Source: a virus
Strand: one strand, 5' to 3'
Length of the DNA stretch: 55,792 nucleotides
IMG/VR virus record: IMGVR_UViG_3300047546_000397
Coordinates: 1-55,792 of that record
Position 1 is the stretch's first letter; the number at the start of each line of letters is the position of its first letter. This document shows positions 2,321 through 49,650 of the stretch, in pieces. Below the pieces are notes generated by a model, which ran no database searches, was not told the DNA's origin, and saw only the letters and a program-made list of their open reading frames with translations. The translations under genes and the position numbers were made by a program.

Positions 2321-2328
2321 TATTTATG
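2321..2328 (-). promoter_or_regulatory. Late promoter CATAAATA
   Basis: Minus-strand CATAAATA 28 bases before the ATG of the virion protein gene, leaving room for a leader with an AGGAG ribosome site. It overlaps the last codons of the upstream gene. Confidence 0.6.
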
Positions 2329-3766
2329 TTTTCTGCATATCGCTAGACAATTCGGGGTCTTTTTGAAACTTGTCCGATGCCTCTTCTTGTTCTTGCTTTT
2401 TTCCTTTTGCAGCATCTCTTACGATTTGTGCTTTACGGGATAGAGTTCTTGCTGCTGCACTTGGCTCGTCAACGGCTTCACTTACAGTCTTCCAGCCACC
2501 TCCCTTTGACTTGTACCACTTTGATGCCCAACCGTTGGCATATGCAGAAGGATACACATCAAACTTTTGTTTTGCTAGTGCTTTTGCTTTAGACCACAAT
2601 GCAGGATTGGTCGGAGCATTCTTTTCTTCAAGATACTCAATCTCTTCGTTGACATGACCATACTTCTTTTTGTACCAATCAGGCATGCCATTCTTTTTTC
2701 TCCAATGTCTTACAGTCGCAGAATCATTTGCTTGGTCACGATACTTGTTTTCTGCTGTTGTGTTATGACTCTTCATTGCTTCTGCTGCTTCATGTGCATC
2801 TTTGGCAATGTGAACTAACGCTTCATTAGATTTCTTATGATACTCATGACCTTCTAGTGGATGACGCTGTGATGGACGGCCTTCTGTCAGTTCAACTTCT
2901 TCTTTGTTGTATTTCTTTTTCAAATATTTGGCAACCTTACGAGCATATTCATCTTTCACTTCTTCTTTCATACCCTTAGGCTTGATACCTTTCTTCTTCA
3001 TGTTGATAGCAATTGCTGCCTGTTGTGCAGGATTTGCTGCTTCATTCAATTCACCACGCAGATAGTTTGCTGCTGTAGAAATATAATCTTCAGCCAATGT
3101 AATCTTTGATTGTACCCATTCAGGAAGATTTGTGTTATCATCCATCATGTCAATCAAATCTTGTGCATTGAACATTAACGAACGAAGTTGTGACATTGCC
3201 ATATCACCTTCATAATCGTATTCACGTGGGTCTTTTGCTTCTTTCATATGTTCCTCGTTTACTCTAGGTGATGCTTGAGTGAAAGATTGAAATGGTTTTT
3301 TTGAAGGTCCAGAAACATGTCTGCCTTTTTTGAACAATTCATATGAAATTCTTCCAGTTTGAATTTGTTCATTCACTTCTGTCTCTTCAGAAACTCTTGA
3401 TGCTTTCATGATACCACGAATTAATGGTGCTTTGAGTTGCTTATGTCTTGGCACAGAAATGTTTTCTTTTGACTTAGGATGGCCGTATACATCATGACCA
3501 CCAGAAGTTCTCTTCAGTGACCAACCAGATTTTTTCAGATGAGCATGTACATCACGTGTCTTCATGCTTGACTCTGGCATCTCATCAAGTTGTTCAACTG
3601 ATTCAACTTTATATTTCTTTTTGATTTCGGCCTGCTTTGCAAGTCTTTCTCTGTCATCAGAAATGCTGTAAGAATGACCTAGTTCTTTGTAATAGTCGGG
3701 ATGTGGTAGTCCCGACTTCTTACGCAGAGCCATTTGTCGTTGATGTAGTTTGTCTGTTATTGACAT
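2324..3766 (-). CDS. Modular putative internal head protein with HicA-like domain
   Basis: A 480-residue mosaic. Residues 15-52 hold the KSGLPHPDYYKELG block found in relatives; 55-62 is a VESVEQLDE linker; 68-123 read as a HicA-type mRNA-interferase fold (TRDVHAHLKKSGW, then GGHDVYGHP with the candidate catalytic His91, then SVPRHKQLK). Later come a basic helical region, a HPLEGHEYHKK...MPDWYKKKYGH module, the YPSAYANGWASKWYKSKGGGW module near 385-435, and a charged tail. Linkers carry L-x-E tripeptides (QLDE, ELNE, ELTEG, YLEE). It overlaps the HNH gene upstream. A packaged protein is inferred from the shared linkers; whether HicA is active cannot be judged here. Confidence 0.65.
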   Translation of the reverse strand: MSITDKLHQRQMALRKKSGLPHPDYYKELGHSYSISDDRERLAKQAEIKKKYKVESVEQLDEMPESSMKTRDVHAHLKKSGWSLKRTSGGHDVYGHPKSKENISVPRHKQLKAPLIRGIMKASRVSEETEVNEQIQTGRISYELFKKGRHVSGPSKKPFQSFTQASPRVNEEHMKEAKDPREYDYEGDMAMSQLRSLMFNAQDLIDMMDDNTNLPEWVQSKITLAEDYISTAANYLRGELNEAANPAQQAAIAINMKKKGIKPKGMKEEVKDEYARKVAKYLKKKYNKEEVELTEGRPSQRHPLEGHEYHKKSNEALVHIAKDAHEAAEAMKSHNTTAENKYRDQANDSATVRHWRKKNGMPDWYKKKYGHVNEEIEYLEEKNAPTNPALWSKAKALAKQKFDVYPSAYANGWASKWYKSKGGGWKTVSEAVDEPSAAARTLSRKAQIVRDAAKGKKQEQEEASDKFQKDPELSSDMQKT

Positions 3767-6891: not shown

Positions 6892-7646
6892 TAGCAATTC
6901 CATTTCCTTAACGCCTTATTGATACGTGAATCTGGATCACGTGCTGTCTTTGCTGATGTCAGTCTACGCTTCATGCCGCCCATTCTTGCACAGAATGATT
7001 TACGACGATTTGCTGCTTTTGAACCAGGTTTCAGTTTGCTTGGCTTTGTTGTTACAGCCATAGATAGTTTTGAACCTGGATTCTCACGACGATATGATTC
7101 AATACCTTTACGATTCAAACCACCGGACTCAGATTTACCTTCTTTACGCTGCCATGCTGCAACTTCTTCTAGTTGCTCTAACTGTTCATCTGTCAGCGGA
7201 CCGTCATCTGCTTCATATGATTCGGTTCTTGTTCCTGGCACAGGTTTGTAACCATGTTTTTTATAAATGTCTTTGAACTGAGAAGCAACTTTCAATAAAT
7301 GACCGTCAGCATTTTGTACTGATATCATTTTTTCATCTAAATTTTCAACCTCTTCATTAGTTTTGCGAACACCAGTAACACGGTCTAAGGCACGATCAAC
7401 ACCAGCCTTACGTTGTTTACCCATGTCTTTTTCTATGCGGTCGTACATATTAGGCTTTATGCCTACTTTTTTAATATGTTGTTTTGTAGCAGCACCATAA
7501 TATTCACCAGCCAATTTTGAAGAGATTTCATCAATCTGTTCAACTTCTTCTTTTACACATGAGCCTTTATCGTAGGCTTTTTTACCTGGTGCTGGTTTAT
7601 AACCCGGCCAGCATCTTTCTGTCATGTAATCTTTGAATGATTTCAT
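6891..7646 (-). CDS. Modular putative internal head protein with KSFCARM C-terminal module
   Basis: A 251-residue, strongly basic protein. The leader MKSFKDYMTE resembles the capsid-targeting sequence, ending in M-x-E. It is followed by the Cys-containing block RCWPGYKPAPGKKAYDKGSC, an EEVEQIDE linker, a helical module around 42-90 (LAGEYYGAATKQH...RKAGVDRALDRVTG), a second linker (EEVENLDE), a third (EQLEQLEE), and a C-terminal module KSFCARMGGMKRR...NKALRKWNC. I recall the last block from phage and giant-virus proteins of unknown function. The ATG overlaps the preceding stop as ATGA. Packaging and processing are inferred. Confidence 0.65.
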   Translation of the reverse strand: MKSFKDYMTERCWPGYKPAPGKKAYDKGSCVKEEVEQIDEISSKLAGEYYGAATKQHIKKVGIKPNMYDRIEKDMGKQRKAGVDRALDRVTGVRKTNEEVENLDEKMISVQNADGHLLKVASQFKDIYKKHGYKPVPGTRTESYEADDGPLTDEQLEQLEEVAAWQRKEGKSESGGLNRKGIESYRRENPGSKLSMAVTTKPSKLKPGSKAANRRKSFCARMGGMKRRLTSAKTARDPDSRINKALRKWNC

Positions 7647-10309
7647 ACGTAGTTTCTCTTTTTGAATGTTGTTAATGAGATGCCTTTTTTCTTCAGTTCA
7701 TCTTCTTTCTGATCACCGATTGATGCTGTTGTTTCATCACCAGTAAGTTCAGCAAGTCTACAATTTTTTACACCATGTTTAGGACATGTAATTCCAGCAG
7801 CAGTGCCATTGCATGAAACTTGTGTTGCTTTACCATCACTGTTTGGTTTTTCACCCATGTCTCTAGCAGGAGATTCACCAGCACCCGCCATCGAAATACC
7901 AGATTCTATTCCTTTGTCGATTGACTCTTCGATTTTCTTCTGGAAGTTTTCTTTGATTGTGGCAAGACTGATTGTTCTTCTTCCTTCGGCAACTGGTTTG
8001 TCAAGGGCTGATTGGTCTTTTCTTCCAACACTGGCTCTAACTTTTCCAAGTTCTTTGGCTGTTGGGGTGGAATTATTTTGTCCATAAACTGCTTCAATCG
8101 CAGAATTATCAGGTGAATGTACTTCATACAAATCCTCTTTGAGTTTTACAACATATCTCTTGCCTACTTTTGCTACTGTGCCGCCTTTTTGGTGTGCTTC
8201 TTTTGCTGCTGAACCACGAATGAAAAACAATCGTGTCTTACCATTCTTGTCTGTCAATAGTTTTTGTTTCTTTGTTTCTTCACTGATCTTACCTTTACCA
8301 TAATTTGATACATTGATTGGTTTACCTTCACGTTCTGGATTTGGGTCATGACGGCGTTTTGCCGCAACTGCTGATGCACGTTCTTTCTTTGACAATGATG
8401 CTGCTTTTGCATTTGACATGCACTTTGGTTTTGCTTCACCTGGTTTTTCACGGGCGCAAGGACCAATTGCTTCACCTTTAGAATTATATCTCTTCCAACC
8501 ACCTTCTGGATGACTAGGATTAAACCAATTGCGTAAATCTTCTTTAATCATGTCTTTTCCTAGTGTGAGTAAATTGAATGCACCTGAGTCAGACATGGTA
8601 TTTACTTCTTCTTCGGCCATTTTCTCTTCATCTGTTTTTAACAAACGAATTGTGCGTGTGACTTCTTCTACTGTGTCACCAGTAATTGTAACTGTAACTG
8701 CTTCGTTGATAAACTCTTCAAATGCTTCGTTGACACTCTTGGCTGCTCTAGCACGTTGATGACGATTGGGTTGTGTTCTCACTACAACCTTATTACCAGA
8801 AGTTTTACCTATTTCTCTTTCCTGTCTCTTTTGGTGTGTTTCGACAGTCTTTGCAATCTTCTCTACTGGTACAAGACTACCATGCACTGAACGATGTGTT
8901 ACATGGCCATCTTTACCATAACGACCGAATCCATAATACTCAAGACCCATCGTATTCATTTGATCGTGTGTGCCAGCATCGGCGTGTGGCTTCATATCTT
9001 TACGAATTGGTGTAGTATCTTTCTTGCCTAACTCTGTGGCAATCCAACCTTTTGCGTGATCGTTCTTTGGTGGTCTACCAACAAACTTCTGCACGTTCTT
9101 GTAGATTTGTTCAAGTTCTTTTGTTTTTGCATCTACAACTTCTGGTGCTGCTGTACGTAAATCTTCTGAATTATCAAACTCAACATAACCATCACGAAAC
9201 ATTTTACCAAACATTGGTCGTGCTGCTTGTACAGAATCCCATTTTTCTTTACGAATGTTTTCTGGCACCGTTCGACCACCACGCTGACCACGCTCAACAT
9301 TTCTTGCCTTTGACACTTCATCATCGGTATTGACCATAATCATTTGAGTTTCGTAACCCAACTTCTCAAGCATATCTTTAATACTTGCATACTTTTCTGG
9401 GTCATCGCCAGTGCCGTTAATGATAACACCATTACGACCGTGAAGTGCAAGACGTTGACGCAACTCTGTAACATTCTTTGCACGTTTACGAACAACTTCA
9501 CGCTGTGCTTCTTCATTGTCTGGCATTTTTTTATCAAGGCCTTGTTTGTCCATCAAATACTCAAATGCTTTATCTGAGTTGATTTCTGTCATACCATGAC
9601 CATCAAGTGTCTTACTTAACACATAGTCTTTACCTGAACCCGGACCACCGCCAAGAAACACTGCTTTGAAAATGCCTTTATCATGTACACCTTCACGAAT
9701 GATTTCTTCGTGCAATCTCATACCTTTACGTACATCATTGAACATTTGTTTGACATGTGCATGAGACATTGATGATGGTGCGCCTTTCTTGAATGATTCA
9801 AGATCACCACTCTTTGCATGTTCACGCATCTTTGAGGCAGAAATGCCAGTTACACCTTCAGCATCAGGATCACGTTCACCTGCTGAATGCACTTTGATTT
9901 CTTTGAAATTAAAACGGGCACCTTCGTGTGTGCCATTATACTTGTGAAGCAGTCTGTGATATTCTTCTGTACGATCAGAGCCGCCAACCATGTGTAGGTG
10001 AGTTACACCTTGCTTGTGTAGTTTTTCGGCGTGATCAAAGAATGTGGGTGCCCTAGTAGATGCTGCTGTGAAGTTTGTGCCAGGAAATGCACGTTTGGCG
10101 TGTTTGACTTTTTGATCTGCTGTAAGAGGATTTTTCTTTGCGTCCTGTGAATGTGACAGAACGATGTGATGAGAACCGCCAACCTTGTCAGCAATCTCTT
10201 TGACTTTATTGACTAGTTTTTCGTGACCATTTGTAATCGGATTCATGCGCCCAAATGCTAGAACGGCATGTCTCTCTTTCTGTTCACGTAGAAAATCTCT
10301 AAATTTCAT
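7643..10309 (-). CDS. Nucleotidyltransferase/P-loop kinase fusion, putative packaged protein
   Basis: An 888-residue multidomain protein. Leader MKFRDFLREQ ends in an L-x-E site. Residues 14-195 are a cytidylyltransferase-like fold: FGRMNPITNGH (the (T/H)xGH motif), HMVGGSD, and GISASKMR equivalent to ISxTxxR. A linker with LHEE and IREG follows. Residues 214-400 are a P-loop kinase (GGGPGSGKDYV, then INSDKAFEYL and an Arg-rich lid), similar to zeta-toxin or polynucleotide-kinase folds. The C-terminal half holds basic modules including GGWKRYNSKGEAIGPCARE and more L/I-x-E tripeptides. The two-enzyme order recalls NadR (NMN adenylyltransferase plus kinase), but the substrate is not shown. Confidence 0.7.
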   Translation of the reverse strand: MKFRDFLREQKERHAVLAFGRMNPITNGHEKLVNKVKEIADKVGGSHHIVLSHSQDAKKNPLTADQKVKHAKRAFPGTNFTAASTRAPTFFDHAEKLHKQGVTHLHMVGGSDRTEEYHRLLHKYNGTHEGARFNFKEIKVHSAGERDPDAEGVTGISASKMREHAKSGDLESFKKGAPSSMSHAHVKQMFNDVRKGMRLHEEIIREGVHDKGIFKAVFLGGGPGSGKDYVLSKTLDGHGMTEINSDKAFEYLMDKQGLDKKMPDNEEAQREVVRKRAKNVTELRQRLALHGRNGVIINGTGDDPEKYASIKDMLEKLGYETQMIMVNTDDEVSKARNVERGQRGGRTVPENIRKEKWDSVQAARPMFGKMFRDGYVEFDNSEDLRTAAPEVVDAKTKELEQIYKNVQKFVGRPPKNDHAKGWIATELGKKDTTPIRKDMKPHADAGTHDQMNTMGLEYYGFGRYGKDGHVTHRSVHGSLVPVEKIAKTVETHQKRQEREIGKTSGNKVVVRTQPNRHQRARAAKSVNEAFEEFINEAVTVTITGDTVEEVTRTIRLLKTDEEKMAEEEVNTMSDSGAFNLLTLGKDMIKEDLRNWFNPSHPEGGWKRYNSKGEAIGPCAREKPGEAKPKCMSNAKAASLSKKERASAVAAKRRHDPNPEREGKPINVSNYGKGKISEETKKQKLLTDKNGKTRLFFIRGSAAKEAHQKGGTVAKVGKRYVVKLKEDLYEVHSPDNSAIEAVYGQNNSTPTAKELGKVRASVGRKDQSALDKPVAEGRRTISLATIKENFQKKIEESIDKGIESGISMAGAGESPARDMGEKPNSDGKATQVSCNGTAAGITCPKHGVKNCRLAELTGDETTASIGDQKEDELKKKGISLTTFKKRNYV

Positions 10310-10341: not shown

Positions 10342-10355
10342 TATTTAGTATTTAG
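10342..10355 (-). promoter_or_regulatory. Tandem CTAAATA late promoter candidates
   Basis: Two adjacent CTAAATA motifs on the minus strand, 32 to 45 bases before the ATG of the 888-residue protein. CTAAATA is a variant of the T4-type late -10 element that I recall for marine T4-like phages. The second copy overlaps the upstream stop codon. Confidence 0.45.
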
Positions 10356-11059
10356 TAGATTTCCGTTGCTCCTGTGCTGGCCATGACACCTTGACAGTGT
10401 ATTTTGTCTAGTTCTACAAGACGATCTGGCTCAATATTGAAGAAATGTGCATGTTCTGTGTCAACACCGGCATCTTGAACTACACCAATGTTTCTTCTAC
10501 AAACGATTGAATAATCATCGATCAGACTTGGGCAAAATGAGAACAAACGAGTGATCAACAAATCAGTGAATGTCTCAGCAGCATCACCAGCAAGCCATGT
10601 AGGTATTCTTTTCTTAAACACATACTTACCAAAGTGATCATGCTCTGCGATGTCAAATTCATCATGAAGTATGGTTCTTGCAGAAAACTTGTACACTCTA
10701 CGAACAGAATGCATCAGACGTTTCAACTCAGGTGCTTGTTTTAGAAGCATCATCATTTTTAGCATCAACACATTTTCTGCTTCACTTTTGCGACCAACAG
10801 CAGCAAACTGTGCTATGTCTTTATCACCAGAAAAGTCAGCAATCAAATCAACAAGACCACTCATGCTGTCATACTTTTCTTTTTCTACTGGTTCTGGTGA
10901 ACCATCAGCCAAAATTACTATTGCATCAGGACATTTCTTTCTGAGTGATACAAGACCTTCAATCGTTTGTTGTAATCTATCTTCACGACTGAGTACGCCC
11001 ATGTTTGGATTAAGAGCAGATGTTACAATGAATAGTTGAAGTGAAGGAATCAATGACAT
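10352..11059 (-). CDS. Unknown protein of glycan cassette, possibly glycosyltransferase-like
   Basis: A 235-residue soluble protein and the last gene of the cassette. It begins LFIVTSALNPN, then RLQQTIEGLVSLRKK and AIVILADGSP, a layout reminiscent of GT-A-like proteins that accompany LPS or capsule clusters (nucleotide-binding strand, Arg/Gln-rich helix, Asp at the strand end). A later block YKFSARTILHDEFD recalls the FKISGRY segment of the same group. It overlaps the preceding gene by ten bases. I do not recognise a catalytic DxD with confidence, so the function stays open. Confidence 0.5.
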   Translation of the reverse strand: MSLIPSLQLFIVTSALNPNMGVLSREDRLQQTIEGLVSLRKKCPDAIVILADGSPEPVEKEKYDSMSGLVDLIADFSGDKDIAQFAAVGRKSEAENVLMLKMMMLLKQAPELKRLMHSVRRVYKFSARTILHDEFDIAEHDHFGKYVFKKRIPTWLAGDAAETFTDLLITRLFSFCPSLIDDYSIVCRRNIGVVQDAGVDTEHAHFFNIEPDRLVELDKIHCQGVMASTGATEIY

Positions 11060-11721
11060 TCGTACTCCGAAAATAATTTAATTGTTTTATATGTCGCTTT
11101 TGATTTCAATACATGAAGAATTGTGTCAGTAATTTCTTTTGTATCCAACAACTTGTCTTTATTTGGATGACCATTTTGCATCGGTGTATTGATACCACCG
11201 GGATGAATACTTGTCACACGAATTTCATCCATTTGTGTATAAATCTCTTTACCAAGAACATCAGCAAAAGCAGTAATAGCGTGTTTAGACGCTGAATAAA
11301 CTGCTTCCCATTCCAGTGGCATAAGACCTGATACAGAATTGATGAAGAAAATTTCACTATGTTTATTCATCAACTTGTATGCTTCTTTGGTCACATACAT
11401 CGTGCCTTTGACATTCAAATCAATGATTCTGTCTATTGACTCAAATGAAAAATCATCTCTGAATAAACCCCATTGATATACGCCAGCATTGTTTACAAGA
11501 ACATCAATGTGTGTACCAATTCTTTTGAATGCTTCTTCAACTTGTTTTGATTTTGTGATGTCACATTCTATCCATTGAAATGTATCTGGAAAAGAAAAAA
11601 GATTGATAGATGGTTTGGTACGTGAAAGGCCATATACAAAGTAACCTTCATCAATCAGTCTATCTGCTATATCATAACCAAGACCATAACTACAACCTGT
11701 CACCACAGCCACTTTACGCAT
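11050..11721 (-). CDS. Short-chain dehydrogenase/reductase
   Basis: A 223-residue classical SDR. The Rossmann glycine motif is TGCSYGLG near residue 8, followed by NNAG near 90, the catalytic Ser in INSVSG, and YSASK as the Tyr/Lys pair. It would reduce or oxidise a small hydroxy compound with NAD(P)H; in this cassette the likely substrate is the cyclitol or sugar made by the upstream cyclase. The start overlaps the cyclase stop as TAATG. All catalytic residues are present. Confidence 0.85.
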   Translation of the reverse strand: MRKVAVVTGCSYGLGYDIADRLIDEGYFVYGLSRTKPSINLFSFPDTFQWIECDITKSKQVEEAFKRIGTHIDVLVNNAGVYQWGLFRDDFSFESIDRIIDLNVKGTMYVTKEAYKLMNKHSEIFFINSVSGLMPLEWEAVYSASKHAITAFADVLGKEIYTQMDEIRVTSIHPGGINTPMQNGHPNKDKLLDTKEITDTILHVLKSKATYKTIKLFSEYECH

Positions 11722-12857
11722 TATATCTCCTCAAAAACATCAATCGCTAATTTCATTTCATCTTCTGTAATGTCATTCACAATCTTGTAGTTGCCAATAG
11801 CAATAGGTAGTGGCGCATATTGATTGCCATTACGATGTTTAGTCGCATCACGAAGACTTTCTAGTAACAACTTCATGTTGGTAAAGTCTTTGTGAAATGT
11901 TTTGAGTTTCAGTCTCTTTGCTACAGTAAAGATTCGTTTCAGTTGAACAGTATCAATGTAGCCACGAATGAATGAGATACATGAACTGTACAGACAATCT
12001 AATGCTACTGCTTCACCATGTAGCAATTCAGGTATATTAGACATTTCAATTACAGGACTAAATGTGTGACCAAAATCTACGCAACGATCTAATCGTTTTT
12101 CCCACAGATTAGGTCCTAGTTCTGCAATCATGTCTGTGATAGCAAGATTGATGACACGAACTGGTACGGCACCATACTGAAACTTTTCATCAATCAGTAT
12201 TTCTGCATTCTCTTCTAGTAGATGAAAGAGTTCTGGTGATTTGATGACAGCAAGTTTGAATATCTCTGCAATGCCATTGACAATTTCTCTTTCATTTTGT
12301 GTACGAATAAATTTCTTGTCGATGTATGTCGCAAGTGGTGGATAATAAGCACCAATTCGATTGCGTCTGCCTAGATGATTGACACCGACTTTAGAACCTA
12401 CAGAAGCGTCAACGATGGCAAGAAGTGTTGTGGGAATTTTAACGTAGGGAATTCCACGACGGTATATGCTACAAGCAAAGCCAACAATATCCAGCAGAAC
12501 ACCTCCGCCAATTGCGATAATCGGTTCACGGCGTAATACTCCATTCTGTTCAAAAAAGTCTAAAATACGATCAACATTCTTCCAATTCTTATTTTCTTCT
12601 TTACAATCTACACAAAGTATTTTACAACTTAACTTGACCGCACCAAAATATGTCGCAATGCTATCTTTGTATAGATCATGTACTTCAGAATCAATAACAA
12701 TAATTCTGCGATCACTATTCGTAATGTTTACAATGTCTTGATTACTTGGGCTGAAGATGTCAGCAGAATATGTAAGTTTGAATTCTACTGGTAATTCTGT
12801 TTTGACTGACCAAGTTCGTTTAAACTTGTCATAATCCATCATAAAATCTAAACTCAT
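11721..12857 (-). CDS. Sugar-phosphate cyclase, sedoheptulose-7-phosphate cyclase type
   Basis: A 378-residue member of the 3-dehydroquinate-synthase superfamily, which uses NAD and a divalent metal to close a sugar phosphate into a carbocycle. Seen motifs: GGGVLLDIVGFACSIYRRG, KIPTTLLAIVDASVGSKVG, RNRIGAYYPP, metal-site candidates in NGIAEIFKLA, DFGHTFSP and LLHGEAVALD. True DHQ synthases read GHTxGHA at the second His site; here it is GHTFSPVIE, as in 2-epi-5-epi-valiolone-type enzymes that take sedoheptulose 7-phosphate. Exact product cannot be read from sequence. It overlaps both neighbours (ATGA upstream, TAATG downstream). Confidence 0.8.
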   Translation of the reverse strand: MSLDFMMDYDKFKRTWSVKTELPVEFKLTYSADIFSPSNQDIVNITNSDRRIIVIDSEVHDLYKDSIATYFGAVKLSCKILCVDCKEENKNWKNVDRILDFFEQNGVLRREPIIAIGGGVLLDIVGFACSIYRRGIPYVKIPTTLLAIVDASVGSKVGVNHLGRRNRIGAYYPPLATYIDKKFIRTQNEREIVNGIAEIFKLAVIKSPELFHLLEENAEILIDEKFQYGAVPVRVINLAITDMIAELGPNLWEKRLDRCVDFGHTFSPVIEMSNIPELLHGEAVALDCLYSSCISFIRGYIDTVQLKRIFTVAKRLKLKTFHKDFTNMKLLLESLRDATKHRNGNQYAPLPIAIGNYKIVNDITEDEMKLAIDVFEEI

Positions 12858-13807
12858 TTCATCGCCTTACTAAACAATTTACATGCATGAACATAAAAAT
12901 ATTTTGCTTTGTCAACATCATCTGCCAGTAACTTGAAGGGTAGCATACGAATGAACTGTGATGCTTCAAGTATATCTATGAGTTTCATTTTATCTTCTGG
13001 TAACTCAGAGATGAAGTGTTTGTTGAACATATCAAAGTGATCTGTGCCATCGTTTGGATTAGATAAATTAATTCCTTTCACGTGAACATTGTGGTCATTG
13101 ATAAGACCATAATAACTACGTGAACACTGAAGCACTTGTGCGTAGTCAAGATATTTGGTATTCCACATACTCTCTTCATACACATCAATAAAAACTACAC
13201 GGTCTTCTTCAAATGAGTACATGATATTCTCAAGTGTTGGATTACCATGTATATTACATTCATCATCATTTTCTAATTCTGAAAAGTATTCTTTCAGAAC
13301 ATGAAGATAACCACCCACACCTGTAATAACTTCACCATTGAAATGATATGTGCCATAATAAAAGAAATCTTCAAACTCTTTTATTTTAATAGCATCTTCA
13401 ATTTTTTGTTGTATCTCTTCAATAAAATAAAGTTTTGGTGCGCCAGCAATAGGTTCTTTTCTGATTGAGTGTAGTGTATTCAGTCCTTTCCAGACTGCTT
13501 GACTTATTTTAAAGATTTGTTCTTCACTTAGTGTGTCTTTGCTAAGAATGCTTTTAATGTCACGAAAGCCCTCAAGATATTCTAAATCAAACCATGCTTC
13601 AACACTAGTAGAATCAACATTTACAACTTTGGGAAATAGATTAGGATATAGTGTGTTGTATTGCTGTAGTTTCATTAACTGAGAATACCAACGCACAAAA
13701 CCATATTCACGATTTCCTACACGTGAGATTTCTTTGCGTACAATCTTCTCATCTGGTAGCCAATAAGTTCTACTTAATGAGCCACCCTTCAATGATATAG
13801 TTTTCAT
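12854..13807 (-). CDS. Aminoglycoside/choline-kinase-like phosphotransferase
   Basis: A 317-residue protein of the APH/choline-kinase fold. The N-terminal lobe shows GGSLSRTYWL...KIVRKEIS with the ATP-site Lys. The catalytic loop reads CNIHGNPTLENIMYS, where the family normally has HGDxxxxN: the catalytic Asp is replaced by Asn. The metal-binding strand VVFIDVYEE follows. In LicA/LicC-like pairs such a kinase sits beside a nucleotidyltransferase, as here. The Asp-to-Asn change could mean a different mechanism or loss of kinase activity. Coupled by ATGA to both neighbours. Confidence 0.7.
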   Translation of the reverse strand: MKTISLKGGSLSRTYWLPDEKIVRKEISRVGNREYGFVRWYSQLMKLQQYNTLYPNLFPKVVNVDSTSVEAWFDLEYLEGFRDIKSILSKDTLSEEQIFKISQAVWKGLNTLHSIRKEPIAGAPKLYFIEEIQQKIEDAIKIKEFEDFFYYGTYHFNGEVITGVGGYLHVLKEYFSELENDDECNIHGNPTLENIMYSFEEDRVVFIDVYEESMWNTKYLDYAQVLQCSRSYYGLINDHNVHVKGINLSNPNDGTDHFDMFNKHFISELPEDKMKLIDILEASQFIRMLPFKLLADDVDKAKYFYVHACKLFSKAMK

Positions 13808-14526
13808 TTTGCACCTAGTGTTTGCCTTGCTATCTCAATACCGTATTCTTGTGGACTGCCTAGCACAATTGTCTCTTGACTACCACCAAGAGGATTCATG
13901 AATACTTGTTTATTAGATTGTATCATACTTTGCATCACATCCGCAATGTATAACTCACCATCTTTTTCGGCTAACTTGTTGTAATACTCTAGGTAAAGAT
14001 GGCCAGTTAGAAAACCATAGAAGCCTGACGATGCGTATGGTGAGATTTGTTTCTTTTCTACAATTTCGATTACCGTGTTTTCATATGCTCGAACATACGA
14101 ATACTTTGGTGAATTGCCTACGAACACATCAATGTATGCATCGTGCTTGGCAGTCAAGTCATCTGCAATGAAATCTATACGACGACCTTTGATGATCGTA
14201 TCTGCATTATGTACAAATGTTGGTAGATATTTGTTGTTTAGTTGTTCAATACCAATTGCTGCTGTATGTGCTTGACCTTTTGTGTCACCAATATACAGAA
14301 TGTTGCTATCATTCCAACCTAGTGGTTTGATTGCTTCGACAAGTTGTTCTTTGAAATAGATGTCTCTTTTGTTAGCAACAAGAATAAGTTGATTGACCCA
14401 ACCAATGTTTTTCAAAATGTCATATATGATTGTTTTGCCATTCCAAGGCAAAAGATATTTTGGTATGTCAAAGCCAACATCATGAAAGCGGGTATTGTAT
14501 CCCGCCATACAGATTATCAGATTCAT
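13804..14526 (-). CDS. Nucleotidyltransferase for sugar or cyclitol phosphate
   Basis: A 240-residue nucleotidyltransferase with the NTP-binding start IICMAGYNTRFHDVGF and the PKYLLPWNGKT block that positions the phosphate substrate, and HNADTIIKG supplying the metal-binding Asp. It would activate a sugar-1-phosphate or cyclitol phosphate with NTP for glycosyl transfer. I start at MNLIICM because its ATG overlaps the upstream stop as ATGA. Length fits small LicC/RfbA-like enzymes. Next to a kinase and a cyclase, it completes a make-phosphorylate-activate set. Confidence 0.8.
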   Translation of the reverse strand: MNLIICMAGYNTRFHDVGFDIPKYLLPWNGKTIIYDILKNIGWVNQLILVANKRDIYFKEQLVEAIKPLGWNDSNILYIGDTKGQAHTAAIGIEQLNNKYLPTFVHNADTIIKGRRIDFIADDLTAKHDAYIDVFVGNSPKYSYVRAYENTVIEIVEKKQISPYASSGFYGFLTGHLYLEYYNKLAEKDGELYIADVMQSMIQSNKQVFMNPLGGSQETIVLGSPQEYGIEIARQTLGAK

Positions 14527-15236
14527 TTCAGCCATTCTTCCATATCATTTCTCAATAGTGAATGCCATGTTCCGTTGTACTCACCTGGTGAAAATGGATG
14601 ATTCACATCACAATATACAAGATTATCACCAACAAGTCCGTACTTTTTCCAGTTTGCACTCATGAAATCTTCCATCATGAACTGTACACCTTCTTTATAG
14701 AACTCATCGTAGTGTTGATATGCGTATGAATACTTGTCCATATTCTCTGATGAAGAGAAAGCAAACTGATCGTTACCAAAATCACGATTCGGTGACATAC
14801 GACAATTTGGTATGTACAGTTTACTGTTGTCTAATTCATCAAATGGTATACGAATGTTAATCGCAAAGTCAAATCGTGAACGAACAACCCAATCAAATTT
14901 CATTTTGTGATATTCTTCATACTCACGTTTTGTTCGCATACACTCATAGATTGCAAACATTTGTGCCCATGTTGACATACGACCATCTTTAACTTTCCAG
15001 TTTGGTGATGGTGGTGGTGTGTTTGTATACTTTGATAAATCAATCGTAGGATTTGGTGATGTAATGAAACTGTGAGCATTATACTTTGAAAGTATTTCTT
15101 GCATCTGCTCACCGGGCATTTCCCATGAATGTAAAAACACAGTTACATCATTGTTCTTGATAATATTCTCATAATGATATGCGTGACCTTTTTCCCACAT
15201 TCTTGGCTGGCCAGAAATACATAGTGCTATTTTCAT
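14523..15236 (-). CDS. Glycosyltransferase-like protein of surface-glycan type
   Basis: A 237-residue protein beginning MKIALCISGQPRMW, then NNDVTVFLHSWE, and later FDWVVRSRFDFAI and NDQFAFSSSENMDKY. This sequence of blocks is one I know from proteins in capsule/LPS clusters and large phages that are treated as glycosyltransferase-like. The RSRFD block holds acidic residues in the place of a DxD metal site. Overlaps upstream and downstream starts by ATGA. Acceptor and donor are unknown. Confidence 0.55.
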   Translation of the reverse strand: MKIALCISGQPRMWEKGHAYHYENIIKNNDVTVFLHSWEMPGEQMQEILSKYNAHSFITSPNPTIDLSKYTNTPPPSPNWKVKDGRMSTWAQMFAIYECMRTKREYEEYHKMKFDWVVRSRFDFAINIRIPFDELDNSKLYIPNCRMSPNRDFGNDQFAFSSSENMDKYSYAYQHYDEFYKEGVQFMMEDFMSANWKKYGLVGDNLVYCDVNHPFSPGEYNGTWHSLLRNDMEEWLK

Positions 15237-15913
15237 AGTTCTCTTCCTACGTTTGCTTTGTTGTCTGTGATGCCAAATGGCTTGAGTTGTTCTTTTTCCA
15301 TCACAACCATACTATTGTAGAATGAAACCGAATACAGATTGTGATATACATCTAATGCTTCTTGTGAAATTGGTGAGCCTTGAAAGTGTTGTTGATTGAG
15401 AATATCAGTTGCTCGTTTACAATGTTCTGTGAACGTGCCAGCACCACGAAACACACCACCCCACGGCTGTGGCCAGTAACTTGTATGTGTGTCTTCACAA
15501 ATGTAAACACCACCTTCTTTGATATGTGGAAAAACTTTATTGAGTGTGGTGATTTGATGATTCATTACATGTGAGCCATCATCAATCACAATGTCAAATT
15601 TGTTTTGCGTTTTAAGAAACTCATCCCAAAACCCTGGATCACTTTGATCACCCATCACAATCTTAACGTCACCATTATATTCATACTTCAAACATTCTTC
15701 GTTGATGTCGATAGCAACAACTGATGTATCGGGACCAAAGTATTTCAACCACATCTCAATTGAGCCACCGCCCAACACACCAATTTCAAGTATGCGTGGT
15801 GCTTTGTGAGTAAATTTACTCAGATGTCTTTCATATACATCAAAGTAGCCTGACCATTTGGTAGAACCTTTTTCAAGTTCCCAAAATAATTCTTTGATTC
15901 TATTTGTCGTCAT
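15233..15913 (-). CDS. SAM-dependent methyltransferase, sugar O-methyltransferase-like
   Basis: A 226-residue class I methyltransferase. SAM motif I is RILEIGVLGGGSIEMW, motif II VVAIDINEE, and the catalytic/metal block is FDIVIDDGSHVMNHQ, typical of the MycE/MycF-like and cephalosporin-hydroxylase-like group that methylates sugar hydroxyls in the presence of Mg. Start taken at MTTNRIKEL; the next upstream gene ends 14 bases inside it. In this cassette it probably methylates the nucleotide-activated sugar or the transferred residue. Confidence 0.75.
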   Translation of the reverse strand: MTTNRIKELFWELEKGSTKWSGYFDVYERHLSKFTHKAPRILEIGVLGGGSIEMWLKYFGPDTSVVAIDINEECLKYEYNGDVKIVMGDQSDPGFWDEFLKTQNKFDIVIDDGSHVMNHQITTLNKVFPHIKEGGVYICEDTHTSYWPQPWGGVFRGAGTFTEHCKRATDILNQQHFQGSPISQEALDVYHNLYSVSFYNSMVVMEKEQLKPFGITDNKANVGREL

Positions 15914-16742
15914 ATTTCGCCTCAATCACTTTACGCCATTCTGGCACACGATCATACTGATGTACAATAGTATACTCTATTCCCGTTGAAGTTACAACCT
16001 TGTCACCTTCCAGTTTCGGTGATGGTTCTAATAGATATGGTCTAAACTGTTCAATCTTAATTGGATCAGCAGTTGTACCTAATTGACATGCCCAACCTTC
16101 TTCTGATTTCATGTACATTGATGTTTTCACATATGGATGTCTAGAAACCATCACATTGAATACCGCTTGATCAACAATTGGTATTGGGCGATTAATACAA
16201 TTCAAAAATAATTGCAATGTCAAATCTCTCATCGCATGTCCACGGCCGGCAAGAACACCTACATTGAAAATTGTATTGTTCTTGAAATCATCATAAATGC
16301 CTTGACCATAACATTGTGTAATATTTTCACGACCCCATGGCTCATCTTTATATTTCATGCTTTCAGAAGAAAATACTAAGTCTTCTTGTGCTGAAAGATT
16401 CTCTTCTAACCATGTAACAGGATTTTTTTGAAAGATAACATCTCGTACATCAGTGGTAATCACATAACGATAGTCGTTGCTTTTGAGCAGTTTGTAAATA
16501 TGAACAAATCGTTCAACATGCACCATCAAATTTGATTGATAAGTTAGATTACCTTCAGTGTCTTGATTGAATGCAATGATTGAGAATCCTGCATTAGATA
16601 CTTTTTGTACAGTATCTTTATCACAATTCATAAGAATCAGAACTTTGTCACCTTCAAAGCCTGATTGATTGATTGAGTTGACCCAATACTTTAGTTTGGA
16701 CCAATCATAGTTGTTGGCACAGCCTACGATCACATCTTTCAT
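15900..16742 (-). CDS. GT-A-type glycosyltransferase
   Basis: A 280-residue protein, first gene of the glycan cassette, with TTGGAGA before the ATG. It starts DVIVGCANNYDW, then YVITTDVRDVIFQKNP, where TDVRD corresponds to the DxD metal site, and later NVGVLAGRGHAMRDL and IVDQAVFN, the block that closes the donor site in this family. It should transfer a sugar from a nucleotide donor; donor and acceptor are not visible. No membrane segment. Confidence 0.65.
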   Translation of the reverse strand: MKDVIVGCANNYDWSKLKYWVNSINQSGFEGDKVLILMNCDKDTVQKVSNAGFSIIAFNQDTEGNLTYQSNLMVHVERFVHIYKLLKSNDYRYVITTDVRDVIFQKNPVTWLEENLSAQEDLVFSSESMKYKDEPWGRENITQCYGQGIYDDFKNNTIFNVGVLAGRGHAMRDLTLQLFLNCINRPIPIVDQAVFNVMVSRHPYVKTSMYMKSEEGWACQLGTTADPIKIEQFRPYLLEPSPKLEGDKVVTSTGIEYTIVHQYDRVPEWRKVIEAKYDDK

Positions 16743-16757
16743 AATATCTCCAATAAT

Positions 16758-16943
16758 TTATTTTATGTCTGTTGTTGCCCAGCTTCCTGTGTATTTTTTA
16801 TATTGTTGTTGACTTTGACCAGGCGTGTCATCAAGATATTTAGCAGTAAGTTCTGGTCTACCCCACTCACCACCACCTGCTTTAGACACAAACTCTTGTC
16901 TGCTATCTTTATTTGCCTTGAGATAATCTTTGAATGTTTTCAT
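16758..16943 (-). CDS. Small putative internal protein with capsid-targeting-like leader
   Basis: A 61-residue protein starting [15 protein letters not shown]. The first eight residues match the leader shared with four other proteins in the window, but the cleavage position reads L-K-A rather than L-x-E, so processing may differ. The rest is polar ([21 protein letters not shown]) and ends in [11 protein letters not shown]. The start overlaps the Fe-S carrier stop as ATGA. Packaging is a guess from the leader. Confidence 0.55.
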
Positions 16944-17263
16944 ATCGTGAATGATGAACCACAACCACAAGTTGCAGTTACGTTTGGGTTTTTGATTGTG
17001 AATGATGCACCCATCAAATCTTCTTTGTAATCAATCTCTGCTTCATTCATGTATTGTAAACTTATACTATCTATGACAACACCAACACCATCTCTTTCGA
17101 ATGTCATATCATCTTCATTTGGTGACAACTCTTCAAGTGTGAAACCGTATTGAAAACCAGAACACCCACCGCCTTGAACGAACACACGGAGTTTCAATGA
17201 AGGATCTTCTTCAGCAATAATTGTCTTAATCTTTCTCACAGCAGAATCAGATATGGTAATCAT
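16940..17263 (-). CDS. A-type iron-sulfur carrier (IscA/ErpA/HesB family)
   Basis: A complete 107-residue A-type carrier: [12 protein letters not shown] start, [17 protein letters not shown] with the first Cys, and [10 protein letters not shown] with the C-terminal CxC pair. All three cluster-binding cysteines are present. The protein moves Fe-S clusters from the scaffold to apo-enzymes in the cytoplasm. In a phage it is an auxiliary metabolic gene; a candidate client in this window is the radical SAM enzyme. It abuts the upstream small gene within one base. Confidence 0.9.
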
Positions 17264-19924: not shown

Positions 19925-21196
19925 CTATTCTAAAAATGCCTCCAATGTACTCTTTTTGTTGAACTCATAGTCAGAATTTCCTTTACGGAATGTCCATATG
20001 GGTTCGATGAACACACTTTGTAATTCTTCAGCATTTGGTCGTGCCATCATACGCATACCAATCTTGCCGATATAATTTGATTCTGGAAGTGCGGCGAAAT
20101 GATCTACCATATCATCACACAGATTTAGTCGCACACCATTCTTTGCTCTTGGTTCAATAATATTGATCATCATGAATCCATTTTGTCGAATTGTGGGCCA
20201 CACCATCTCTGTAACTTTGAAAAAGAAATCATACTTCCAGCAGTCAAATGAATTGTATCTTGACCACGATTGTTCTGATACTGCTGCTGTGTCTGATGCA
20301 TATTTTTCTGTTTCAAAATATGGTGGTGAAGTAAAATACAAATCAAATGTGTCTCTGTACAACGACCAATCAACATCTTCTGATGGTTTACGCCAAATCT
20401 TAACTGTCTTTTTACCACGACATTCAAAATAATCTTCTTTTTCAATCAACTTAGGGGTACCACCTATGATCTTTTCATACTCTACACATTGTTTCTTGTA
20501 CACTTCAAACACATCTGGATTAGGATCACAACCAACATATAGTTTGGTATTTGGTGTGCCATAAAAACCAGCAAGTCTGTCACCCCAGCCACATGATGTA
20601 TCTAGAATATTTTCTGCACGATGACGTTCATACAAAGCCTTTGCTACGGTAGGTTTGAACTGTGTTGCTGTATATGTACCCAATCTAAATGCCGCACGAA
20701 ATGCACTGTCATCAATATCTTTACCTTCCATGACACCTGTTCTCCAAAAGTGCCAATTCATCTTTGATAATTTATCTTCATTATACCATATTTCCATCGG
20801 TGAGTCAACAGAATTCGAACCACATTTCATGCGATTTTCTTGTTGAAAGTAGTTTGATACCGAGTTGTAATAGTGAGTCTTGTCGATAACACCCAAAGGT
20901 CTATCTGAGTATTTGTATTTGTATTCATAGCGTTCTAATACAACATCAAAATCTTTGTACAATTTTTCCATTGAAGTGTTGTAGAACTCATGAAACAATT
21001 CACGCATGTCTTGTTTGTGAATTATTTTTAGAGGAAACTTGGTGCCTGCTTTCGTGATAAAACATGCCAAAGAATCTCGAATGTCATCTTTTTTATATTT
21101 TTCAATGAGCGCATTCCAATCGTCATTACTGATTACTGGAATGTGTCTTTCATCTTGATGTTGGCCAAAGTAATCTACAATCTCACTTAAAATCAT
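19925..21196 (-). CDS. SPPY-type DNA methyltransferase
   Basis: A 423-residue class I methyltransferase. SAM motif I is ILDTSCGWGDRLAGF, the acidic end of strand two is VGCDPNPD, and the catalytic motif is FDLYFTSPPYFETEKY, the TSPPY form seen in N4-cytosine and some N6-adenine DNA methyltransferases. An N-terminal region of about 190 residues with no known motif precedes the catalytic part. The start overlaps the helicase stop by ATGA. A paralogue of the same plan lies at about 39 kb. Target base and site are unknown. Confidence 0.75.
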   Translation of the reverse strand: MILSEIVDYFGQHQDERHIPVISNDDWNALIEKYKKDDIRDSLACFITKAGTKFPLKIIHKQDMRELFHEFYNTSMEKLYKDFDVVLERYEYKYKYSDRPLGVIDKTHYYNSVSNYFQQENRMKCGSNSVDSPMEIWYNEDKLSKMNWHFWRTGVMEGKDIDDSAFRAAFRLGTYTATQFKPTVAKALYERHRAENILDTSCGWGDRLAGFYGTPNTKLYVGCDPNPDVFEVYKKQCVEYEKIIGGTPKLIEKEDYFECRGKKTVKIWRKPSEDVDWSLYRDTFDLYFTSPPYFETEKYASDTAAVSEQSWSRYNSFDCWKYDFFFKVTEMVWPTIRQNGFMMINIIEPRAKNGVRLNLCDDMVDHFAALPESNYIGKIGMRMMARPNAEELQSVFIEPIWTFRKGNSDYEFNKKSTLEAFLE

Positions 21197-38598: not shown

Positions 38599-38627
38599 AG
38601 TATACCCTACAGTTCAAACTTTGTCAA
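38599..38627 (-). promoter_or_regulatory. Sigma70 promoter P2 before VWA gene
   Basis: TTGACA-N17-TATACT, one mismatch in the -10. It overlaps the methyltransferase stop codon and lies 76 bases upstream of P1. Between P2 and the ATG I see only P1 and its repeat. Confidence 0.65.
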
Positions 38628-40201
38628 GGCTTATAAAAGACGAATATTGGTTCGTATTTTAACCACAAGTTATTAACTTTGCAATAGTTTTTAGTCTTGG
38701 GTAGACCTGTCTCAGGGTCAACACGATTGTCACCTGGCATTTGTGCAAGTGCCATTTTTAACTTGCCCTTATATTCCAAGCCGAACTCTTTCAGAAAGTT
38801 GATCGAATCTTCTTCCAAAGGTAAAGATGTTTTGTCGAAGATTACATCAGCAATATTCCACAGTAAGTATCTATCTCGTTTCAAATACTCTGCACAAGTT
38901 TGTAATGTTTGACGAAGAAAACCATCACGCCATGCTTCATACTGACCGAACTTTTTGTATGACTGAGTATCATCTTCTGAGTAAGCCTCTTTCATAAAGT
39001 AAGGTGGTGAAGTAAAGATTAAATCTAACTTACCTTTATACTTTTGAAACTTGGGGTCATTGTGTATTTCTTCCGAACCATGTTGAAATATTTCGTATGT
39101 GTGTGTCTTTGGAAACAATCCCATAGCACGATAAGTTTTTGTATTAAAAAAATCTGCTACTTGATGATACTTTGTTCTACCATCAGGTGTGTTGTGATCA
39201 GTGTTTGGATCAGTTCCAATGTAATGTATGTTACGACTGTCATCAATAGACATAGCACCAAGTAAACGGCCACCCCATCCAGCAGAAGGATCATAGATAA
39301 CAATCTGTTCTTGATTCTTAAAGGGTTCCGTATATCGTTCGTACAAGTATTTGGCTGTTAATGGAGGGAAGTTGACCGCATACTGACAGAACGACACACG
39401 GAAAGCTTTGAAGCCGGCTGGAAAAAGTTTTTGTCCTTTCTCATACAGACGAATACGATATGTGTTTACACCATCTTTGGCATCAATATTTGTAAGACAT
39501 TCTTCTGGTATGTTCAGTGAAGCAATGTCATCACGTGTGAGCATGAACTCAGCATCTTTTGATTCTTTTAAGTTTACATTGTATCCCGTATAATTTTCTT
39601 TTTCTGTTGGGTCTAGCCAATATCCATGTGTGCCATAGCCACGTGCAACAGATTCAAACCAATCAACAAATTCTTTTACAGAATTAGGTACAAACTGTGC
39701 TGTGCCTATTTGAATCATGTGACCTGCACGAATGGGCAGTGAGTGATGATAGAAAGAGTCTCTTTTGAAATGTCTAGAAGCATATATCAAAAAGTTTTCT
39801 AGCAAGTCATCACGTGCAAAGTAATCATAGATAGATTTACCATTCTCAACTTTTTTGGAATAGTTAATCTTTGTCTTCATCATTGTTGGAAACCACTGAT
39901 TGACGGCATTGCCAACAAGGCTGGTATTGCGAATTATATCTTTTTCATTTGTTAGTTCATCAGTCTCTTCAAACTTCCATGTTGGAAAAGAAGTCAACTC
40001 ATTGAACTGATCAATGATTTCTTGTTCATTGTAACCAACACGTGGTGGGTTACCTCTCACATCCCAATTAGTAACAATTGATTTACGAAGGTCTATAATC
40101 CATTGACGAAACTCATCCTTCGTCATTAACAACACTTGATCAAATGTTTTGTTTATGTCAGACTCTAAAAACTCTGTGTTTCGTTCGTAAAAATATTTCA
40201 T
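38624..40201 (-). CDS. SPPY-type DNA methyltransferase, second copy
   Basis: A 525-residue methyltransferase. SAM motif I is IYDPSAGWGGRLLGA, then IGTDPNTD, and the catalytic block LDLIFTSPPYFMKEAYSED. Layout (long N-terminal region, GWGxRL, TSPPYF) matches the methyltransferase at about 20 kb, so the two are paralogues or share an origin. Start MKYFYERNTEF chosen since its ATG overlaps the upstream stop as ATGA. Likely modifies DNA; target unknown. Confidence 0.75.
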   Translation of the reverse strand: MKYFYERNTEFLESDINKTFDQVLLMTKDEFRQWIIDLRKSIVTNWDVRGNPPRVGYNEQEIIDQFNELTSFPTWKFEETDELTNEKDIIRNTSLVGNAVNQWFPTMMKTKINYSKKVENGKSIYDYFARDDLLENFLIYASRHFKRDSFYHHSLPIRAGHMIQIGTAQFVPNSVKEFVDWFESVARGYGTHGYWLDPTEKENYTGYNVNLKESKDAEFMLTRDDIASLNIPEECLTNIDAKDGVNTYRIRLYEKGQKLFPAGFKAFRVSFCQYAVNFPPLTAKYLYERYTEPFKNQEQIVIYDPSAGWGGRLLGAMSIDDSRNIHYIGTDPNTDHNTPDGRTKYHQVADFFNTKTYRAMGLFPKTHTYEIFQHGSEEIHNDPKFQKYKGKLDLIFTSPPYFMKEAYSEDDTQSYKKFGQYEAWRDGFLRQTLQTCAEYLKRDRYLLWNIADVIFDKTSLPLEEDSINFLKEFGLEYKGKLKMALAQMPGDNRVDPETGLPKTKNYCKVNNLWLKYEPIFVFYKP

Positions 40202-40995
40202 CCTGCTACATTCCAATAAAGTACATCACGTGATTGACCATGAATTTTTTGATAGTTTTTCATAACACTCCAACCTTTTGCATCATATGTAGGTGCTGAT
40301 GGAAATGGTGGCACATCATTTTCTTTTACCGGTTTGTCAAACTTGTACGGTGAAACATGGTGAATAGCACGACCGATTTCTCTATCAGACATCTTATGTC
40401 CAACTTGAACTACATGTATTGTAGCATCAGGCCATGCTAATTGCAAGCCTCTTGTCAATGTACCTGATGAACCCACCGACCAAACTTCTTTTGGGTTTAT
40501 AGGCATAGACCTAGCAACTTTAATAATTGATGCGATTACAGTGTCATGATATAAACCAAGAGGTAATAACGCTCTTTCTTCTGGTTTCTCTGCCACATAT
40601 TTTCTGGCACGTGACTCAGTTACATTCAACATACCAGATGAAACCCAATGATATTCTGCACCAAGTTCTAAACCTAGTTTTTGATATGGGTGTAGTTTGT
40701 CTAGACTACGTTCTGCCATGAATAATACTGTTTTTTTATTGTATCTTTTACATATCACAGGCAAACTTATTTGTGCATAACCAGTTGCAGGAGAAGAACC
40801 ATACACCCATTCTTTTATATTTTTATTTTCGGATGCATGGCCAATAAAGTAATCAGCAAATCGTATTTTGCTGCCATAATTTAAAAGATCATCTCGTACT
40901 ACAGCAACACCATCACGCATTTCAATGATTGGTGCTGGATTAGGGTCTTTCCAATCACCAATTAGATCAAGGTAGTCTTCAGGAGTAAATAGCAT
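40198..40995 (-). CDS. PLP fold-type-II-like protein (ACC-deaminase/desulfhydrase-like)
   Basis: A 265-residue protein resembling fold-type II PLP enzymes: VVRDDLLNYGSKIRFADYFI matches the KRDDL...GNKxRKLE block with the PLP-lysine region; VYGSSPATGYAQIS sits where SNHxRA binds the carboxylate; VWSVGSSGTLTRGLQLAW corresponds to the phosphate-binding GSGGT loop; PTYDAKGW ends it. Start MLFTPEDYLDL chosen; it overlaps the deformylase by 17 bases. Substrate unknown; phage PLP enzymes can act in DNA-base hypermodification, which is only a suggestion here. Confidence 0.65.
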   Translation of the reverse strand: MLFTPEDYLDLIGDWKDPNPAPIIEMRDGVAVVRDDLLNYGSKIRFADYFIGHASENKNIKEWVYGSSPATGYAQISLPVICKRYNKKTVLFMAERSLDKLHPYQKLGLELGAEYHWVSSGMLNVTESRARKYVAEKPEERALLPLGLYHDTVIASIIKVARSMPINPKEVWSVGSSGTLTRGLQLAWPDATIHVVQVGHKMSDREIGRAIHHVSPYKFDKPVKENDVPPFPSAPTYDAKGWSVMKNYQKIHGQSRDVLYWNVAG

Positions 40996-44352: not shown

Positions 44353-44892
44353 TTATTCTACATCATCATCTAGAAATTGTTCAAGTCCCTCCGACTTCTT
44401 TTCCTTTTTCTTTTTCTTATTTTCCTCAAAGTTGTGAATAAACTCTGAGATATTATCATACAATTCAAACTGTTTCATGTTACCGTTTTCATCTTCGTAC
44501 ATCTCACCCTCATCAAGCAAACCGAATTGTTGTGTGGCTTTATACTTCACATATAGTTGTTTCTTTTCACGCATAATTCTACGCAGAAACGCATAGTAAA
44601 TTATCTGTGTAAAGTAAGCAAATGGATTTTTTGATTTAGCAGGATCAAAGTTACGAAAGTACATCAGACAATTTTCTACACCATCTGATATCATTTCATC
44701 ACGATATGTGTATGAAATAAAGTTTGGCTTACGTGATAGATGTTCTGCAATCTTTAGAAAACACTCACCAATGTAATCTGGTATCTTTGGTTCTGGTTTA
44801 CTATTAGTCTTCGCATCTTCACAATCTGTTCTATATTTTATAAGTGCTGCTAGAAAGTCTGCGTTGTTGACGTAATGATTTGATGTTGTCAT
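44353..44892 (-). CDS. 55: Late-transcription sigma factor gp55
   Basis: A 179-residue minimal sigma factor (T4 gp55 has 185) that directs host RNA polymerase to TATAAATA promoters. Region-2-like core: YTYRDEMISDGVENCLMYFRNFDP and NPFAYFTQIIYYAFLRRI. The charged end (EENKKKKKEKK, EGLEQFLDDDVE) is the clamp-binding type of tail. Its ATG overlaps the epimerase stop as TAATG, so it is co-transcribed with the sugar cassette. Confidence 0.92.
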   Translation of the reverse strand: MTTSNHYVNNADFLAALIKYRTDCEDAKTNSKPEPKIPDYIGECFLKIAEHLSRKPNFISYTYRDEMISDGVENCLMYFRNFDPAKSKNPFAYFTQIIYYAFLRRIMREKKQLYVKYKATQQFGLLDEGEMYEDENGNMKQFELYDNISEFIHNFEENKKKKKEKKSEGLEQFLDDDVE

Positions 44893-45824: not shown

Positions 45825-45825
45825 A

Positions 45826-47001: not shown

Positions 47002-47003
47002 CA

Positions 47004-49648: not shown

Positions 49649-49650
49649 AA

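Follow-up and report, generated by a model that had tools for sequence, protein, structure and literature searches.

Bacteria and animals are known to use C7-cyclitol chemistry in antibiotics, enzyme inhibitors, and sunscreens. In the acarbose pathway (AcbC, AcbU, AcbR, and AcbS), a 2-epi-5-epi-valiolone synthase (EEVS), a 1-kinase, and a nucleotidyltransferase feed a transferase step; the 1-kinase, AcbU, acts on valienol, and the product of AcbR is GDP-valienol (PMC9200736). EEVS enzymes are told from desmethyl-4-deoxygadusol synthases (DDGS) by two fingerprint sites (PMC4426668). Here we describe a cassette of eight overlapping genes, A to H, in a single virus record of 55,792 bases (IMGVR_UViG_3300047546_000397; the whole stretch is referred to as the window), whose head, tail, replication, and late-sigma genes are T4-like. 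From its sequence and that of related loci, we suggest that this operon of T4-like phages is likely to make and use a nucleotide-activated C7-cyclitol (carba-sugar), as an original prediction made from the DNA had proposed.

The cassette shares with the acarbose pathway an EEVS-type cyclase (gene C) and a predicted kinase and a nucleotidyltransferase of the same general type (genes D and E), but D and E come from families other than those of AcbU and AcbR. No counterpart of the acarbose 7-kinase, 2-epimerase, or phosphatase was found in the cassette; neither a ROK-type 7-kinase nor a 2-epimerase is among its eight genes, the remaining phage genome being incomplete. Acarbose is a secreted inhibitor, whereas the end product expected of the cassette is a glycan. 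Gene C resembles the ValA-type EEVS (AcbC type) in catalytic residues, Asp/His fingerprint, tree position, and sequence (41% identity to ValA); it differs in being viral rather than actinobacterial and in adjoining genes for an APH-like kinase, a nucleotidyltransferase, a short-chain dehydrogenase/reductase (SDR), and glycosyltransferases. A search of 50,697 phage records returned for gene C only DHQ synthase-like sequences of <33% identity, with no EEVS-type cyclase among them, and for gene D no match at all. Gene E is distantly related (24 to 28% identity) to sugar-metabolism nucleotidyltransferases of cyanophages, found in cultured T4-like phages.

Subfamily of the cyclase

Gene C belongs to the DHQ_synthase family (Pfam, E 6e-36). 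Its best score against the PDB is with ValA (4p53, 284 bits), followed by 5tpr (218 bits), which we take to be a DDGS structure, and the top 3-dehydroquinate synthase (DHQS) scores 142 bits. The enzyme might be considered a phage-borne AroB that boosts the shikimate pathway of the host, the neighboring glycosylation genes being unrelated, since its Pfam and NCBIfam matches are named DHQ synthase, yet it scores 215 bits against a curated aroB cut-off of 305. The GHTFSP that had first drawn attention to the cyclase reads in full DFGHTFSP, whereas DHQS sequences have N-x-GH-xx-[GA]-H. All 14 AroB sequences compared have an Asn ahead of the GH metal-ligand motif and a His at the position of P268; all 80 aligned viral cyclases have Asp and Pro instead. 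These 80 enzymes show no variation in the metal ligands or in most of the shared catalytic residues that were tested; K340 does vary.

The fingerprint points in the same direction. D261 and H341 are invariant (80/80) in the viral cyclases, and ValA and 75 cellular relatives likewise have Asp/His at these positions, against Asn and a variable residue in DHQS and Ala/Thr in DDGS. The two residues are those reportedly given by Kean 2014, and their positions were placed by alignment. None of the DDGS features tested in the viral cyclases (the Ala/Thr fingerprint, a GHTW motif, and grouping with 5tpr in the tree) was found. The fingerprint alone is not proof, because a distant cyclase outside the EEVS clade (L182), which may be EboD-like, also has Asp/His.

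In a maximum-likelihood tree built, like the second one, without EVS, EboD, DOIS, or aminoDHQS references, the viral cyclases form one clade (support of 99/96) nested in cellular EEVS-like enzymes, with DHQS and DDGS outside and with Prochlorococcus, Woesearchaeota, Myxococcales, and Halomonas sequences as the nearest neighbors. When long branches were removed, a grouping of the viral enzymes with DDGS was rejected (p-AU 6e-5) and one with AroB was weakly rejected (p-AU 0.044), and the branch uniting the viral and cellular EEVS was modestly supported (70/46). Clustering with true DHQS, named in the original prediction as the outcome that would refute it, was thus looked for, and the viral enzymes were instead found to nest among ValA-type EEVS-like enzymes. 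We reject the DHQS (shikimate) and DDGS (sunscreen) readings on the basis of fingerprint, motif, and tree; with Pro in place of the second His and with the cyclase linked to the rest of the cassette, a role as AroB appears extremely improbable. By these sequence characters, gene C is not a DHQS but an EEVS-type sugar phosphate cyclase. Separately, a 15-residue insertion lies directly ahead of the LLHGEA metal-ligand motif in the aligned cyclases of three viral loci (L032, L034, and L035), and the cyclase of a fourth (L033) equals them in protein length.

Architecture, conservation, and insertion site of the cassette

The cassette occupies positions 10352 to 16742, with all eight open reading frames on the minus strand and transcribed in the order H (glycosyltransferase-like), G (methyltransferase), F (glycosyltransferase), E (nucleotidyltransferase), D (kinase-like), C (cyclase), B (SDR), and A (glycosyltransferase) (Table 1). 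The tight coupling initially noted holds throughout, with an overlap at 7 of 7 junctions: 26 bp at H/G if G starts at its TTG, or 14 bp if it starts at the ATG four codons later; 4 bp (ATGA) at G/F, E/D, and D/C; 13 bp at F/E; 1 bp (TAATG) at C/B; and 10 bp at B/A.

Table 1. Genes of the cassette and the genes bordering the insertion (positions in the window)
Feature	Position	Strand	Basis
Gene H, 280 aa, glycosyltransferase-like, TTDVRDV motif	15900..16742	-	PHROG glycosyltransferase family, E 4e-6
Gene G, 230 aa, S-adenosylmethionine-dependent methyltransferase; TTG start, or ATG at 15913	15233..15925	-	Methyltransf_24, PHROG
Gene F, 237 aa, GT-A-fold glycosyltransferase-like	14523..15236	-	AlphaFold2 model; DUF7796 below cut-off
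Gene E, 243 aa, sugar-1-phosphate-type nucleotidyltransferase	13804..14535	-	NTP_transferase E 4e-11
Gene D, 317 aa, APH/choline-kinase-like predicted kinase, HGN instead of HGD	12854..13807	-	APH E 0.02
Gene C, 378 aa, predicted EEVS-type sugar phosphate cyclase	11721..12857	-	ValA match, fingerprint, tree
Gene B, 223 aa, SDR, predicted cyclitol reductase	11050..11721	-	adh_short E 6e-41
Gene A, 235 aa, GT-A-fold glycosyltransferase-like	10352..11059	-	AlphaFold2 model
Downstream border gene of insertion, 888 aa, cytidyltransferase domain	7643..10309	-	Counterparts in Melnitz-2, DLP_6
Upstream border gene of insertion, phrog_455, 407 aa	17535..18758	-	Counterparts 45-47% identical in Melnitz-2, DLP_6

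A scan of viral contigs with the window cyclase yielded 39 loci with cyclases 72 to 100% identical, most of which have all eight genes in unchanged order, and a profile scan yielded 108 encoding stretches, the best 80 loci of which, down to 53% identity, were retained. Among the 43 viral loci with enough flank on both sides for gene content to be counted, E, D, C, and B were each present in all 43, and F was found in 40, H and A in 39 each, and G in 35; the core is thus fixed, and the glycosyltransferases and methyltransferase are variable. Phages with only the core have other genes, some of them F-like, at the places of the missing ones, and in four loci (L159 to L162) gene E is distant or displaced. 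Two further loci (L132 and L135, 9763-12688) carry two copies of gene A followed by a diverged methyltransferase, an arrangement which indicates that genes at the cassette's variable end can be duplicated and exchanged.

Every cassette gene is under purifying selection (median dN/dS, 0.035 to 0.137), and this, together with recurrence in 39 viral contigs and in more when diverged ones are counted, argues that the cassette is not a product of chance. Methylophilales phage Melnitz-2 and Stenotrophomonas phage DLP_6 lack the cassette, and a single small gene separates their counterparts of the border genes, so that the cassette can be seen as cargo at a conserved junction. The phages that carry it are a widespread T4-like group. 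A HesB/IscA-type iron-sulfur protein gene (16940-17263, minus strand; Fe-S_biosyn, E 4e-21) adjoins the cassette here and in most related phage loci.

Enzymes of the core and of transfer

Family searches agreed with the functions first proposed for the cyclase, SDR, nucleotidyltransferase, methyltransferase, and, weakly, the kinase-like protein. Gene B is an SDR by family search, and gene E, in addition to its NTP_transferase match, resembles PDB entry 4evw (E 6e-19). The APH match of gene D rises from E 0.02 in the window to 2e-7 in its Myxococcales homologue, and a kinase profile run against the PDB gave weak kinase-fold matches only. The motif HGNxTLEN is conserved, and two residues that fall at Mg-binding positions of the kinase fold in the alignment, Asn194 and Asp208, are invariant. 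These weak matches support an APH/choline-kinase-like fold, and we regard gene D as a predicted kinase in which the catalytic Asp has been replaced by Asn, the weak point of the proposed pathway. Gene D could for that reason be an inactive pseudokinase, in which case E would activate something else and the route to a nucleoside diphosphate (NDP)-cyclitol would be wrong in detail; the Asn for Asp exchange is shared by its homologues with a readable motif, cellular ones included. We consider this improbable, given that gene D is present in every well-flanked locus, evolves under purifying selection, and keeps both Mg-site residues.

The original prediction also spoke of glycosyltransferase-like proteins. 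By sequence, gene A had no family match of any kind and gene F none to a glycosyltransferase family; the structural models of A and F and the PHROG match of H favor the claim. The AlphaFold2 model of A (pLDDT, 94.2) resembles glycogenin and GT6 enzymes, and that of F (pLDDT, 82.7) resembles GT6 enzymes (galactosyltransferases), in each case with a TM score of about 0.5. Both models thus have GT-A nucleotide-sugar transferase folds, a TM score of this size being informative on fold and not on donor or acceptor. For gene H, which has no sequence match in the PDB, the PHROG match is the basis of the glycosyltransferase-like label; its TTDVRDV motif is partly invariant among 20 viral copies. Gene G matches Methyltransf_24 (E 7e-6), a PHROG methyltransferase family (E 4e-23), and, weakly, RMNT_CmcI. 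The cyclitol may be methylated, as first suggested; the methyltransferase was found in 35 of the 43 well-flanked loci and not in the other 8.

Related modules in cellular genomes

The kinase was found in 4 of the 11 genomes searched, precisely those that have the module, and adjoins the cyclase. In Woesearchaeota SI075_bin66 (L042), homologues of D, C, B, and E are adjacent, in that order rather than the phage order, with a Wzx-like flippase gene alongside and a GT2 gene further along. Two Prochlorococcus single-amplified genomes, AG-355-I04 (L047) and AG-424-E20 (L052), encode homologues of E, D, and C in the viral order. An aldo/keto reductase, identified by family search, follows in L047 in place of the SDR; in L052 the same place is taken by a 359-aa open reading frame whose start matches that reductase, the family annotation being for L047 only. 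Both regions hold a cytidylyltransferase, a GT9-like gene, and a sulfotransferase, and A, F, G, and H had no match within the Prochlorococcus locus examined. A Myxococcales locus (L041) has E-D-C followed by an aldo/keto reductase-methyltransferase fusion, a GT61 gene, and another glycosyltransferase gene. Replacement of the SDR by an unrelated aldo/keto reductase in Prochlorococcus and Myxococcales supports a reduction step after cyclization. The module-bearing Prochlorococcus genomes also encode a separate true AroB.

The module is rare in cellular genomes. It was present in 1 of 200 genomes sampled from the genus Prochlorococcus, and 399 Pseudomonadota genomes contained no full-length kinase match; partial, weak kinase-profile matches in 10 Pseudomonadota genomes lay inside larger open frames and were not taken as module members. 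A single-sequence cyclase scan of genome contigs gave no match, matches being obtained once ValA had joined the query alignment. In Halomonas dongshanensis (L043, 7935-12714), an EEVS-like cyclase is followed by an SDR, a membrane-protein-like open reading frame, a PfkB kinase, and a ROK-like open reading frame, apparently a different, uncharacterized C7-cyclitol operon.

The product of the phage operon could conceivably be a free small molecule (a sunscreen, osmolyte, or glycosidase inhibitor) rather than a building block for glycans; in cells, acarbose and gadusol-type compounds are known to arise through EEVS and DDGS (PMC9200736, PMC4426668), and the operon contains a methyltransferase. 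The presence of the nucleotidyltransferase in every well-flanked locus, the three glycosyltransferase-like proteins, the flippase or glycosyltransferase genes adjoining the cellular modules, and a fingerprint that is not of the DDGS type make this unlikely, and an activated cyclitol destined for a glycan is the reading that we favor.

Phage background, precursor supply, and acceptor

The DNA polymerase has its best matches in Synechococcus cyanophages (52 to 53%), and capsid matches, at about 65%, include cyanophages, Methylophilales phages, and DLP_6. Among 19 related contigs, the largest of 172 kb, none was found to have psbA or transaldolase. Most cyanomyoviruses carry psbA, and the group is therefore probably not a typical cyanophage group; we rejected a cyanophage origin on the missing psbA despite the cyanophage-like polymerase and capsid. 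A phage-borne supply of sedoheptulose 7-phosphate was likewise rejected, in view of the missing transaldolase and of a split transketolase (window 47974-49654) both halves of which occur in only 1 of 19 other cassette-bearing records (that of L008), so that, in 2 of 20 records overall, the transketolase is not part of the conserved system. The transketolase halves lie in a second sugar-type cluster (44892-51171, minus strand) with an NAD epimerase, a DegT aminotransferase, a GHMP kinase, and a radical SAM/B12-binding protein, where the enzyme could serve either sedoheptulose 7-phosphate supply or the building of a branched sugar.

The 11 cassette-bearing records searched, several of them fragmentary, contained no GtrA, and in 9 of them no thymidylate synthase/dCMP hydroxymethylase-family gene was found, the other two being outlier contigs that have one. 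These negatives weigh against Gtr-type O-antigen exchange, with its GtrA flippase, and against T4-type DNA glucosylation, neither of which we retain, and do not bear on other surface or DNA targets. Transfer of the activated cyclitol to phage DNA bases, in the manner of T4 glucose, would suit the T4-like background and glycosyltransferases that all appear soluble by crude hydropathy. Such a role is quite unlikely in view of the scarcity of that gene family and of a core that stays fixed while the glycosyltransferase set differs among lineages. By the same crude measure, no obvious membrane segment was seen in any of the eight proteins, the sole hydropathy peak of >2 lying at the conserved GGG region of the cyclase.

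Three other phage proteins, all encoded on the minus strand, were noted: within a 480-aa protein (2324-3766) lies a HicA toxin-like domain (E 9e-10), which is unusual for a phage protein so much larger than the domain, and two large proteins with DNA methyltransferase-type similarity (19925-21196, with a TSPPY motif, and 38624-40216) both match phrog_12517.

Proposed pathway and its meaning

We suggest that sedoheptulose 7-phosphate, most likely drawn from the pentose phosphate pathway of the host, would be cyclized by C to 2-epi-5-epi-valiolone. Reduction of its ketone by the SDR B would give a valiolol-type cyclitol, from which D, the APH-like kinase, would form a cyclitol phosphate, at C1 by analogy, and the nucleotidyltransferase E would convert this phosphate to an NDP-cyclitol. 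A, F, and probably H would build a glycan containing the cyclitol, to which, in most lineages, G may add an optional O-methyl group. As the most likely acceptor we see a virion protein or a cytosolic-side precursor of a cell-surface glycan, DNA being less likely. The sequence of making, activating, and transferring that was first envisaged fits the conserved core and the three glycosyltransferase-like proteins. What sequence comparison shows is the subfamily of the cyclase, the conservation of the core, the presence or absence of the cassette at one junction, purifying selection, and the predicted GT-A folds of A and F.

Several observations weigh against this pathway. In the 80 gene D homologues in which the catalytic loop could be read, cellular ones included, it is HGN or LGN and not HGD; D and E have no close relationship to the acarbose kinases and nucleotidyltransferases that have been described, and their substrates are accordingly assigned from linkage; the cyclase tree contained no EVS-type cyclases, whose product is a different epimer; and no membrane or export gene is among the eight. 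The substrate of the cyclase is assigned by family, and the order of reduction, phosphorylation, and nucleotidylation, as well as the product, acceptor, and purpose, is what we infer.

The chemistry is known, the carrier and operon logic are new, and the product is probably new. In agreement with the original prediction, no report of a phage EEVS or of a viral C7-cyclitol pathway was found in the open-access literature, a search outside of which lie most subscription journals and all preprints. The cassette may represent a largely viral route, which T4-like phages have as cargo and which is rare in bacteria and archaea, to an NDP-carba-sugar that becomes part of a glycan of the surface or virion. 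If so, carba-sugars would be building blocks of glycans and not merely parts of antibiotics, and the phage would have a decoration not readily removed by ordinary glycosidases, which depend on the ring oxygen for their chemistry. The phage, Prochlorococcus, and Woesearchaeota gene sets offer test cases for the incorporation of carba-sugars in glycans, as well as enzymes with which NDP-carba-sugars could be made. A viral route to an activated cyclitol beside glycosyltransferases would broaden the metabolism known from viruses and add to the known constituents of glycans.

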